Assembly (NCBI GenBank): GCA_030529365.1
Contig: JAUMXB010000010.1
Span: 1-64,000 of the forward strand
DNA: 64,000 nucleotides
Direction of reading: 5' to 3'
Source of the DNA: Cardiobacteriaceae bacterium
Lineage (GTDB): Bacteria > Pseudomonadota > Gammaproteobacteria > Cardiobacteriales > Cardiobacteriaceae
Shown in pieces: positions 31,927-64,000 of this stretch (the stretch's first letter is position 1; every line of letters starts with the position of its first letter). Below the pieces are notes generated by a model. The model saw nothing but the letters and a program-made list of their open reading frames with translations. It was not told the DNA's origin and made no database searches. The translations under genes and the position numbers were made by a program.

Positions 31927-32055
31927 GCGCGCTTCATTCAAGATAATGGGAAAACGGATTCCAGTTTTCCTGCTGCGGCAATCTTGGACAATTTGTTGAT
32001 TGAACGATAGTATTTCATCCAATTTCCATTTGCCATCCATGAGGTTTTCAAAATC

Positions 32056-32346
32056 ATGCACCCAGCCAAAGTTTCGCGCGCGCGTTTGCAATGGCTCACC
32101 GATTTGCCCAATGTCGGCGCGGCGACGGCTGCGGATTTGCAAGCGTTGGGCATAAAGCGCCCGCAGGATTTGCACGGGATGGATGCGCTGGCGCTTTACC
32201 ACGCGCTTTGCGAACGACAGGGGGCGCGGATGGATCCGTGCATGCTCGATGTTTTCCTGTCGCTTGAAGATTTCATGGCGGGCGGCGAGGCGCGAGCATG
32301 GTGGCACTATACGGCGGAACGCAAGCGGCGTTATCCGCAGGTTTGA
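32056..32346 (+). CDS. Small helix-hairpin-helix protein (Cdd1/pathogenicity-locus type)
   Basis: 96 aa. RLQWLTDLPNVGAATAADLQALGIKRPQDLHGMDALALYHALCERQGARMDPCMLDVF is an HhH-type DNA-binding-like fold seen in small proteins of the Cdd1 family, whose function is not known to me. The stop TGA at 32344-32346 is the first three bases of repeat copy 8. Confidence 0.75.
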   Translation: MHPAKVSRARLQWLTDLPNVGAATAADLQALGIKRPQDLHGMDALALYHALCERQGARMDPCMLDVFLSLEDFMAGGEARAWWHYTAERKRRYPQV

Positions 32347-32427
32347 GAAATTTTCTCATCATTAAGCGCTTATGTCGGGAAATTTTCTCGCGATAAGCGC
32401 TTAATTATGGTAAAAAATAACTATTTT
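32344..32427. repeat. AAGCGCTT modular element, copy 8
   Basis: TGAGAAATTTTCTCA, core 32364-32371, GGGAAATTTTCTCG, core 32395-32402 (31 bp), end box TGGTAAAAAATAACTATTTT. It fills the whole 91-bp gap between the HhH gene stop and the queA start. Confidence 0.92.
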
Positions 32428-32437
32428 CAAGGTTTTT

Positions 32438-37895: not shown

Positions 37896-37978
37896 TGATA
37901 AATTTTCTCAATATAAAGCGCTTTATATGATAAATTTTCTCACTATAAGCGCTTATAAATGGTAAAAATCTACTATAA
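37896..37978. repeat. AAGCGCTT modular element, copy 10
   Basis: TGATAAATTTTCTCA, core 37916-37923, TGATAAATTTTCTCA, core 37947-37954 (31 bp), end box TGGTAAAAATCTACTATAAA. It starts 5 nt after the recJ stop and ends 26 nt before the thrC start. Confidence 0.92.
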
Positions 37979-39414: not shown

Positions 39415-39499
39415 AGAAGCGGCGGCGGAGCGGGCGGCTGCGCCATTCCGCTGCCGGATATGGCCGCCTCCCCAAAAAATGGCATAGGATTTTTCTTTT

Positions 39500-39596
39500 A
39501 ACCCTTTGAACAAAGGGATTTATTCAAAGGGTTGTCTATGTCATTTTTCGGGGGGCGCTATATGGGAATGGCGGGTTTTTCCCGCCATTTTTTGTT
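39500..39596 (+). terminator. Two stem-loops after thrC
   Basis: The first, AACCCTTTGAA and TTCAAAGGGTT, is a perfect 11-bp inverted repeat at 39500-39533. The second, AATGGCGGG-TTTTT-CCCGCCATTTTTT at 39566-39596, is a standard rho-independent terminator. Confidence 0.85.
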
Positions 39597-44423: not shown

Positions 44424-44510
44424 GATGAGAAATTTTCTCATCAATAAGCGCTTTCCTTGATAAAATTTCTCACAATAAGCGCTTTTTTTGTGGTAAAAAA
44501 CCACTATTTT
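44424..44510. repeat. AAGCGCTT modular element, copy 13
   Basis: TGAGAAATTTTCTCA, core 44446-44453, TGATAAAATTTCTCA, core 44477-44484 (31 bp), end box TGGTAAAAAACCACTATTTTT. Lies between the converging fba and DedA genes. Confidence 0.92.
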
Positions 44511-48424: not shown

Positions 48425-48508
48425 ATGATAAATTTTCTCATCATGAAGCGCTTATGGCGATAAATTTTCTCACGATAAGCGCTTATAGATGAGAAAAAAC
48501 CACTATAT
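48425..48508. repeat. AAGCGCTT modular element, copy 14
   Basis: TGATAAATTTTCTCA, core 48446-48453, CGATAAATTTTCTCA, core 48477-48484 (31 bp), end box GATGAGAAAAAACCACTATA. Lies in the divergent gap between the FimX-like gene and the next plus-strand gene. Confidence 0.92.
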
Positions 48509-58235: not shown

Positions 58236-58575
58236 TGGCGGGTTGGCCGCCTTGTAGGGACGTAGCCTGCTACGTCTTGTATGAAGGGAAAGGCGGACGT
58301 TGCAGCCCCGGACGACATTCACCTACGGGAAAACGCATGGCGCGGAAACGGTATTGAAGAACCGGCCGCGCGGTCGCGAAGCGCGAAAAAGAAAATATCC
58401 CGAGACACTACCACAGATGTCAGCAACACAGTGCCTGGCAAGATGCCTGACCGCATGGGCTTACGCCCATCCTGCGAATCGCTGCGCGATGGCGGGCTAA
58501 AGCAAATTGGATTTATCTGTTTACACATGTGGTTGCGACGAAGCGCCTCAAAGCCCCTGGGCGCAGCCGCAGACG
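58236..58575. other. Intergenic region, no recognised gene
   Basis: Begins with a small hairpin ACGTAGC-CTG-CTACGT near 58260. Short open frames exist in several phases, but none resembles a known protein. Confidence 0.5.
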
Positions 58576-58751
58576 CGGGGCTTTTTTGGCGGGGTTACGG
58601 GCTTGGGTGTTTGAGCGACAGCGAGTTTACAAGCCCGCCGCCAAAAGCCCCGCGGCAAGGGAAAACTGCGCCCCGGGGTCGCCTTTCTTTGGTTCCAAAA
58701 CAGGAACACGTCCTTTGGCGACGCAAAGAACGTGTTCCTGTTTTTGGAACC
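58576..58751. repeat. Two large nested inverted repeats (hairpin element)
   Basis: IR1 spans 58576-58652: CGGGGCTTTTTTGGCGGG pairs with CCGCCAAAAGCCCCG, extended by GGGCTT/AAGCCC. IR2 spans 58691-58751: GGTTCCAAAACAGGAACACGT pairs with ACGTGTTCCTGTTTTTGGAACC, with an inner CTTTG/CAAAG stem. Both would form strong cruciforms or RNA hairpins. The GGGGTCGCCTTTCTTTGG wording resembles dispersed repeats in other proteobacteria. An open frame runs through it to 58912, ending in a 39-codon AT-richer tail (start 58794) that I cannot identify. Confidence 0.7.
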
Positions 58752-58946
58752 GGCCGCGCGGCCGCAAAGCGCAATCTCGAAAAGAGCGAACCATGCAGAA
58801 AATCACCATGGACTTGTTGACGCAAATATTGTGGAAAACTTTGTTTCCCTCTCATCCTAATGCCATGCCAGTCGAGCAATTGGCCTTTGCTTTGAATTTC
58901 GTCGATATTTAAACCAAAAACGCTCTAAAGCCCACCTTACGGACAA

Positions 58947-59030
58947 TGAGAAATTTTCTCATCAATAAGCGCTTATGGCGAGAAAATTTATCAACATAAG
59001 CGCTTATTGATGGTAAAAAGTTGCTATTTA
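58947..59030. repeat. AAGCGCTT modular element, copy 17
   Basis: TGAGAAATTTTCTCA, core 58967-58974, CGAGAAAATTTATCA, core 58998-59005 (31 bp), end box TGGTAAAAAGTTGCTATT. Its edge touches the yjdM stop codon. Confidence 0.92.
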
Positions 59031-61695: not shown

Positions 61696-63066
61696 TTACA
61701 GAATGAAGCGGCTCAGGTCTTCGTTGCTGGAAATGTCGCCAAGCGTTTTTTCCACATAGTCGCCATCGATGCGCACGGTGTCGCCGTCGGCGCGGTCGGC
61801 AGCGTCGAATGAGAGGCTTTCGGTCAGCTTTTCCAGCAGGGTGTGCAGGCGGCGCGCGCCGATGTTTTCCGTGGTGCGGTTTACGTGGCAGGCGATTTCC
61901 GCGAGTTTGTTGACGCCGCAGTCAGTAAACTCCAGACGCAGATTTTCCGTGGCGAACAGCGCGGTGTATTGTTTGATGAGCGAGGCATCGGGTTCGGTGA
62001 GGATGCGCTTGAATTCCTCGACGCCGAGCGCTTTCAGCTCGACGCGCACCGGCAGGCGTCCTTGCAGCTCGGGAATGAGGTCGGAAGGCTTGGCGAGATG
62101 GAAAGCGCCGGAAGCGATGAACAAAATATGATCGGTTTTGATCATGCCGTATTTGGTGGAGACGGTCGAGCCTTCCACGAGCGGCAGCAAATCGCGCTGC
62201 ACGCCTTCGCGCGAGACATCTCCGCCGGTGACGTCGCTGCGTTTGGCCACTTTGTCGATTTCGTCGATGAAGACGATGCCGTTCTGCTCGGCATTGCGGA
62301 TGGCGGTTTGCTTGATTTCCTCATCGGAGACGAGGTTGTCCGCTTCTTCTTCAGCGAGCTGCACGAGGGCATCGGCAACGCTCATCTTGCGCTTGCTCTT
62401 GCGGCCGCGGCCAAGGTTTTTGAACATTTCGGTGAGCTGGTTGCTCATTTCTTCCATACCGGGCGGCGTCATCACTTCAAAGGTGGCGCCTGCCGTGTCG
62501 CTGACTTCGATTTCGATGATTTTGTCGTTCAGCTCTTCGCGCAGGATGCGTTCGCGATAGGTTTTGCGCGCGGGGTTGTCGGGCGTGCTTTGCTCGACGT
62601 CATCCGACCACAGGGTTTGCGTGCGCGCGGGCGGCACCAGGGCATCGAGGACGCGCTCGAGCGCTTTTTCGCGTGCCTTGGCTTTCACGCGCACGCGCGC
62701 GCGTTCGCGCTCGAGTTTGATCGCGGTTTCGGCGAGATCACGGATGATGGAATCGACATCGCGGCCGACATAGCCGACTTCGGTGAATTTGGTGGCTTCG
62801 ACCTTGACGAAGGGCGCTTCGGCGAGCTTGGCGAGGCGACGCGCGATTTCGGTTTTGCCGACGCCGGTCGGGCCGATCATCAGGATGTTTTTCGGGGTGA
62901 TTTCACTTCTGAGTGGTTCGTCGATCTGGCGACGGCGCCAGCGGCTGCGCAGGGCATTGGCGACAGCGCGTTTGGCCTCTTTCTGGCCGACGATATGGCG
63001 GTCGAGTTCTTCGACAATTTCACGCGGCGTCATGTTCAAATCACGATATTCGGTGTTGCTGTCCAT
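61696..63066 (-). CDS. hslU: ATP-dependent protease ATPase subunit HslU
   Basis: 456 aa. AAA+ unfoldase partnering Hsl[35 protein letters not shown] near the start, Walker [16 protein letters not shown] near 62, an I-domain insertion, Walker [12 protein letters not shown], sensor region [15 protein letters not shown], and the conserved C-terminal DLSRFIL that docks into HslV. The start at 63066 ([14 protein letters not shown]) with AGGA upstream is chosen. An in-frame extension to 63108 lacks a signal. Three more copies of this same start lie upstream. Confidence 0.97.
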
Positions 63067-63577
63067 GTAGGAGTCCTTAAATATTGAATCGGAGAGCGCC
63101 GCGTGCACTCGGAGGCAGGCAAAGGCGCTGAAAATAAAGTCACTGCTGGTTGCGGTTGACGGAGAGGTTTGCGGGCGTCATGCGCCTCGTGTCACGGGCG
63201 TCATGTTCAAATCACGATATTCGGTGTTGCTGTCCATGTAGGGGTCCTTGATTTTGAAGAGGAGAGCGCCGCGTGCACTCGGAGGCAGGCAAAGGCGCTG
63301 AAAATAAAGTCACTGCTGGTTGCGGTTGACGGAGAGGTTTGCGGGCGTCATGCGCCTCGTGTCACGGGCGTCATGTTCAAATCACGATATTCGGTGTTGC
63401 TGTCCATGTAGGGGTCCTTGATTTTGAAGAGGAGAGCGCCGCGTGCACTCGGAGGCAGGCAAAGGCGCTGAAAATAAAGTCACTGCTGGTTGCGGTTGAC
63501 GGAGAGGTTTGCGGGCGTCATGCGCCTCGTGTCACGGGCGTCATGTTGAGATCGCGGTATTCGGTTGAGTTGTCCAT
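63067..63577 (-). repeat. Three tandem 170-bp repeats carrying extra hslU start sites
   Basis: Units of about 170 bp repeat with start codons on the minus strand at 63577, 63407 and 63237, then the true hslU start at 63066 (spacings 170, 170, 171). Each unit has AAGGA, ATG and [14 protein letters not shown] ([14 protein letters not shown] in the outermost), then VTRGA and a TGA stop. This gives three 19-residue upstream frames (63577-63518, 63407-63348, 63237-63178). The two inner units are nearly identical, pointing to recent slippage or unequal exchange. Confidence 0.93.
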
Positions 63578-63608
63578 GTAAGAGTCCTTGGATATTGGAA
63601 TGCTTTGT

Positions 63609-63643
63609 GTTGGGGTTCGCCTGCGGCTCACCGCCAACCTGCG
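63609..63643. repeat. GTTGGGGTTCGC...CCGCCAACCTGC small repeat
   Basis: A single unit of the 9083-9412 family, between hslV and the tandem repeats. Confidence 0.7.
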
Positions 63644-63649
63644 GGCGAC

Positions 63650-64000
63650 TTAGTCTTTCAGCTCGTCGGTGATGATGTTGTGATTGGTGTAAACGCAGAC
63701 ATCGGCGGCGATTTCCAGGCTTTTGCGGGCAATGTCGAGCGCGTTCATGTCGGTGTTGTGATAAAGCGCGCGGGCAGCGGAAAGGGCGAACATGCCGCCT
63801 GAGCCAATGGCGGCGATATGGTCTTCCGGTTCGACGATGTCGCCGTTGCCAGAGAGAATGAGGGTGTGATCAGGATCGGCGACGATGAGCATGGCTTCCA
63901 GACGGCGCAGGGCGCGGTCGGTGCGCCATTCCTTGGCAAGCTCGACGGCGGCGCGCAAAAGCTGGCCGTTTTGCGCTTCGAGCTTGGCTTCGAAGAGTTC
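63650..64000 (-). CDS. hslV: ATP-dependent protease subunit HslV (C-terminal part, cut by window end)
   Basis: The last 116 codons plus stop. [60 protein letters not shown] is the HslV core, with the GSGG motif of the Ntn-hydrolase fold. The N-terminal catalytic Thr lies beyond the window. Upstream partner of hslU, separated from it by the tandem repeat block. Confidence 0.95.

Follow-up and report, generated by a model that had tools for sequence, protein, structure and literature searches.

The hslV-hslU junction at the end of a 64,000-nt stretch of DNA from a Cardiobacteriaceae bacterium (the window) raises the question of how the start of hslU came to stand several times over ahead of the gene itself, and what the additional starts could do for HslU. 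The two genes are the last of the window and run in the same direction, on the minus strand. The first-pass annotation had described a 170-bp repeat of the ribosome-binding site, the ATG and 14 hslU codons, closed by a TGA after VTRGA, and this was borne out for three copies: each unit contains an AAGGA ribosome-binding site, an ATG, the first 14 codons of hslU, the residues VTRGA and a TGA. The three 170-nt copies lie head to tail, and the true hslU start provides a fourth, incomplete one. By Tandem Repeats Finder the repeat spans 63020-63590 (period 170, 3.3 copies, score 1019), and the start of the array, previously given as 63577, is corrected to 63590. The layout of the junction is as follows.

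61696..63066, minus strand: hslU (456 aa; TIGR00390, 652.7 bits; residues 12-456 matched from model position 1)
63067..63649, minus strand: hslV-hslU intergenic region, 583 nt, containing the entire array
63081..63250, minus strand: inner unit u3, same as u2 across decoy and spacer
63178..63237, minus strand: decoy ORF of u3, 19 codons, stop TGA
63251..63420, minus strand: inner unit u2, 5' part of the true start joined to the tail of the outer unit
63348..63407, minus strand: decoy ORF of u2, 19 codons, stop TGA
63421..63590, minus strand: outer unit u1, ancestral decoy and orthologue of the one unit in G001
63518..63577, minus strand: decoy ORF of u1, 19 codons, stop TGA
63608..63640, minus strand: REP-like dispersed repeat between hslV and u1, at the same place in G001
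63650..64000, minus strand: 3' part of hslV, which continues past the window end (NF003964, 293.2 bits)

The ATG positions are 63577, 63407 and 63237 for the decoys and 63066 for the productive hslU start. Both HslU and HslV are matched by their family models along their whole length. Each decoy peptide consists of MD(NS/SN) and 15 further residues before the stop. HslU has 11 residues ahead of the canonical MTPREIV, that is, before position 1 of the family model, and since these residues precede the HslU model, the duplicated piece is mostly the N-terminal extension of HslU together with the ribosome-binding site. Versions of this extension are also present in family relatives. We tested the 190 window ORFs of 100 aa or more for a second copy of their head in the 600 nt upstream, and hslU alone had one; copies that form a tandem array from the head of the adjacent gene are far above chance at such length and identity.

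Each inner unit combines the true hslU start with an older decoy

We compared the units of the window genome (G000) with each other and with the junction of the sole other species compared within the genus (G001), where the order is hslV, REP-like element, decoy (19 residues), spacer and hslU. When aligned on their ATGs, the two inner units, described in the first-pass annotation as nearly identical, showed no difference between -140 and +147. Against these two, the outer unit had 8 differing positions, confined to the 30 nt that begin at the ATG; the next 110 nt formed an identical run common to the tails of all three units. An alignment of the starts gave two types, one comprising the outer decoy of the window genome and the G001 decoy, and the other comprising the true starts of both genomes; the inner decoys of the window genome carry true-start letters up to AACATGACGCC and outer-decoy letters beyond.

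Judged from this alignment, the inner units are recombinants of the true hslU start and the outer decoy. Since they join the true start to the outer-unit tail, and the outer type is found in G001, the outer unit is the ancestral decoy rather than an aged copy, common to G001 and, as a remnant, to G009, a genome of a second genus (g4). Its divergence had earlier been taken to mean that the array is not new, which was a misreading: the outer start diverged from the hslU start before the species split, and the expansion to three units is recent. The copies are identical yet ~9% different from G001, and by this measure the expansion is recent or the copies have been homogenised. From a G001-like ancestor, the window lineage would have reached three units by a misaligned (unequal) exchange between decoy and true start, repeated once.

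This simple exchange history does not predict one feature, namely that the 20 nt ahead of the true ATG in the window genome differ from the inner units, whereas the same stretch in G001 matches them. Because it is the G001 counterpart and not the window's own sequence that matches the inner units, the leader of the true start would have changed after the first exchange. Relative to the inner units, positions 63067-63095, just ahead of the true ATG, show clustered changes and one extra base.

We consider it highly improbable that the array is an assembly artefact and that the real unit number is one or two. The copy number given by the assembly does carry some uncertainty: it is a 32-contig draft, and a shift of 170 brings 287 identical nt of the inner units into register, a length that exceeds common short reads. 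However, assemblers tend to collapse repeats and seldom expand them, the hybrid inner decoys are absent from G001 and so must derive from real sequence, and the single-unit state was independently seen in G001.

The unit is confined to a few hslV-hslU junctions within the family

The hslV-hslU junction was present in all 12 family (Cardiobacteriaceae) genomes. The comparison of unit number that had been proposed earlier could be made between species, with three units in the window genome and one in G001; G009 had a damaged remnant and the other 9 of the 12 genomes had none. The G009 remnant, CTCAACATGACGCC..GACACG.AGGCG.CA.AATG, aligns both with the beginning of the spacer and with the end of the decoy that derives from hslU, with scores of 36-38 against shuffle maxima of 27-31 (500 shuffles each, versus G000 and G001). 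The G004 junction had no match to the G001 unit above chance (its score was reached in 391 of 500 shuffles), and the other members of the 12 had short junctions or nothing of the unit.

In most relatives, hslV and hslU adjoin closely or overlap. Across 30 hslVU loci, drawn from a search of 57 genomes in which 47 had a match, the gap between the two genes was at most 75 nt in 23 and at least 100 nt in 7. In eleven of these loci the genes are 30 nt or more apart, and these junctions were compared with their own hslU head; a resemblance was found in three (G000, G001 and G009), with 0 of 200 shuffles scoring as high. The hslVU matches in G011:C21 and L010 (G011:C22) were equal in length and score and are probably an assembly duplicate.

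Outside the locus, the 170-nt unit had no other good match across the 12 family genomes (best E 0.018), and because it has no second home in these genomes, the unit is not a mobile element. We likewise rejected a mobile-element origin of the spacer, for which there was no second good site in the 12 family genomes and no exact viral-contig match of its 22-base pattern. The REP-like element at 63608-63640 was rejected as the source of the unit, since it is not part of the array and does not recur with the units. Counted from codon 5 on, the decoy shows 3 differences from the g4 start of G004 and 5 from its own true start, a greater closeness to g4 that is suggestive only and on which we do not build. 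In our reconstruction, the hslU translation-start region would have been partly duplicated in tandem in the ancestor of this genus and the related genus g4, leaving one 19-codon decoy cistron between hslV and hslU.

Dispersed repeats in the window

With E up to 1, G000 contained 52 matches to the REP-like repeat (~33 nt) and G001 contained 62, many of them in opposed pairs; there were just 4 weak matches in G004 and 2 in G009, so that the repeat is apparently genus-specific. A Y1 transposase matched by Pfam in G000, which by eye we take to be IS200-like, was considered as its partner; its surroundings did not contain the exact REP pattern, and the idea was dropped. Another dispersed repeat, of ~85-105 nt and composed in part of TGATAAATTTTCTC and GCGCTTAT, lies at 37896-37966, 44426-44485, 48427-48486 and 58948-59007 and has dozens of copies in the genus. 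A third, of ~105 nt, lies at 39455-39568 and has many G001 copies with 72-93% identity.

The decoy unit diverges less than control intergenic DNA

Between G000 and G001, the decoy unit (decoy and spacer) differed at 15 of 169 sites (14 or 15, depending on the aligner), compared with 280 of 1162 sites in nine control intergenic segments, a count pooled by hand over crude gene calls with shadow frames (Fisher 2.4e-6). Fourfold sites differed at 68 of 215 positions in hslU (31.6%) and at 30 of 95 in hslV. The decoy ORF had only 2 changes in 60 nt, one silent and one between TGA and TAA, the final 72 nt ahead of the inner ATG had 4, and the REP-like part had 4 in 45. Expressed as matches over the longer length, conservation was 0.91 for the decoy unit and 0.90 for the whole hslV-hslU region, against 0.40-0.83 for all 11 controls, including those of unequal length, which are hard to align. 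The region was thus top of 12 intergenic regions, a rank that is not strong alone; the junctions 31927-32437 and 58236-59027, of very unequal length, were left out of the 11 controls. A second pooled test, which used 6 of the 11 controls and left out 5 of very unequal length, was weaker (Fisher p 5.2e-5).

We also considered whether a recently exchanged DNA tract lies behind the low divergence. Fourfold sites differed at 10 of 28 positions in the last 60 codons of hslV and at 6 of 26 in the first 60 codons of hslU, so the flanks as a whole are not unusually similar and this explanation was rejected. The very start of hslU is an exception: its first 15 codons had 1 third-position change, and fourfold differences numbered 0 of 5 in the first 15 codons and 1 of 10 in the first 30. 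Gene-start regions may be slow in general here.

Part of the unit is not kept. A second small ORF of 13 codons overlaps the decoy stop (ATGA in G000, TAATG in G001), and we considered it as a conserved, coupled cistron; however, its stretch had 9 changes in 37 nt, including amino-acid changes, which equals the control rate. Taken together, the comparison of the two genomes suggests that the decoy unit is not simply decaying and that there is selection on it. This signal is only suggestive since it comes from one species pair, in which G001 is 78% complete in 210 contigs.

The array could also be a neutral relic of a partial duplication long ago and slippage more recently, with neither selection nor an effect on expression. 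The unit has decayed in G009 and is missing from 9 of the 12 family genomes; being damaged in G009 and absent from G004 and G011, the decoy is dispensable in the family. Recent identical copies are also the product expected of slippage. On the other hand, divergence of the unit is about a third of that in control intergenic stretches and at fourfold sites, and we regard a relic of this kind as possible but doubtful.

The decoys carry the signals of short leader cistrons

Decoys had been proposed as possible translation starts, and their signals are indeed of a usable kind. The AAGGA core lies 7 nt ahead of the ATG in all starts, the anti-SD energy is -5.1 for the decoys versus -5.8 for the true hslU start, and the opening cost is similar among the starts (5.3-6.7 kcal/mol). 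Since Shine-Dalgarno core, spacing and opening cost resemble those of the true start, the 19-codon decoy cistrons are likely translated wherever hslVU mRNA is made. They also have the features of bacterial leader-peptide cistrons, namely a start codon with its own Shine-Dalgarno sequence, a short frame and a stop ahead of the main gene. Unlike the usual leader ORF, this one consists of the gene's own first 14 codons, three times over. The third decoy (63237) is in frame with hslU (63066) in the window genome, with a single TGA between them. We rejected read-through from this decoy into HslU, because the spacing in G001 is 169 nt and its decoy is out of frame; the frame in the window genome is accordingly taken as chance.

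We think, on the strength of gene spacing and start signals, that the one ancestral unit serves as a leader and keeps the translation of hslU apart from that of hslV, because here hslU is set off from hslV, whereas most relatives have the two genes close or overlapping. In a report on heat-evolved E. coli, translational coupling of hslV and hslU is raised as a possibility (PMC10044804). The decoys would be translated as short leader peptides whenever hslVU mRNA is made, and the long interval would separate hslU from hslV translation, such that hslU would rely on its own start. The outer unit would be kept by selection as the hslU leader, and the number of extra units would be close to neutral. 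The combined account, comprising an old duplication, unequal exchange, an outer unit kept as the hslU leader and extra units that are near neutral, is the one we favour, with a probability of roughly 0.6.

Alternatively, along the lines of the first-pass annotation, the decoys could act as an attenuator in which their starts catch ribosomes that terminate early, such that HslU falls relative to HslV with unit number and unequal exchange serves as a slow switch. Every decoy keeps AAGGA and ATG at equal spacing, the true start has the slightly better Shine-Dalgarno match, clustered changes set the 20 nt ahead of the true ATG apart from the inner decoys, and the species differ in unit number. However, each start of a polycistronic bacterial mRNA loads ribosomes independently, so an upstream decoy need not compete with the true start. 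No clear conserved structure was seen to join the decoy and the true start: the unit has no marked RNA structure (fold z -0.54), and a two-sequence fold consensus of G000 and G001 had 50 identical, 2 one-sided, 2 compensatory and 0 broken pairs, while each sequence alone folds differently. We consider an attenuator of this kind unlikely. The broader proposal, that a selected decoy leader was copied from the gene's own start and that changes in decoy number by unequal exchange could make the HslU:HslV ratio adjustable, is in our estimate a long shot.

The spacer could instead hold a DNA or RNA element for hslU, such as its own promoter or a protein site, with the start codons as passengers. The low rate of change over the 72 nt that lead up to the inner ATG would fit such an element, as would the promoter activity reported for the repeat-bearing senX3-regX3 intergenic region of M. 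tuberculosis (PMC4213456). However, there was no sigma-70-like promoter or terminator-like site in 63000-63700 and no Rfam match of note at the array, and the decoy ORF is conserved too. We judge a spacer element quite unlikely.

Likeness to known arrays

By analogy, the MIRU array between senX3 and regX3 is the nearest known case in form. MIRUs are dispersed across the M. tuberculosis genome, and small ORFs within them overlap adjacent start and stop codons. In contrast, the hslVU unit is confined to hslVU, with no other good site in the 12 family genomes, and it copies the downstream gene's own start, which MIRUs are not known to do. The senX3-regX3 region resembles the hslVU array in having tandem units between two genes of one operon, there of 77 and 53 bp, and their make-up varies among strains (PMC4213456). 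A tandem duplication of a leader region ahead of a gene is also on record, by title, for the ermC translational attenuator of plasmid pSES6 (Lodder et al. 1996, in the references of PMC6157413). Attenuators of the erm type work through inducer-dependent stalling on a leader peptide and alternative hairpins that mask the start of the main gene. In the ermC case a known drug-responsive attenuator is altered, whereas the hslVU array has no known attenuator, stall peptide or inducer. A keyword search of titles and abstract openings, covering few subscription journals, returned neither hslVU start repeats nor arrays of a gene's own start. The hslVU array is a real, modest variant of intercistronic tandem-repeat arrays.

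Thus, the array is real and its origin is well explained, and its interest is modest. It offers a clean natural case in which a gene's own start was duplicated, persisted as an additional short cistron while two species diverged, and was later amplified through recombination of the decoy with the original. Should the decoys alter HslU output, they would provide a simple, evolvable means of setting the ratio of two subunits within one protease.
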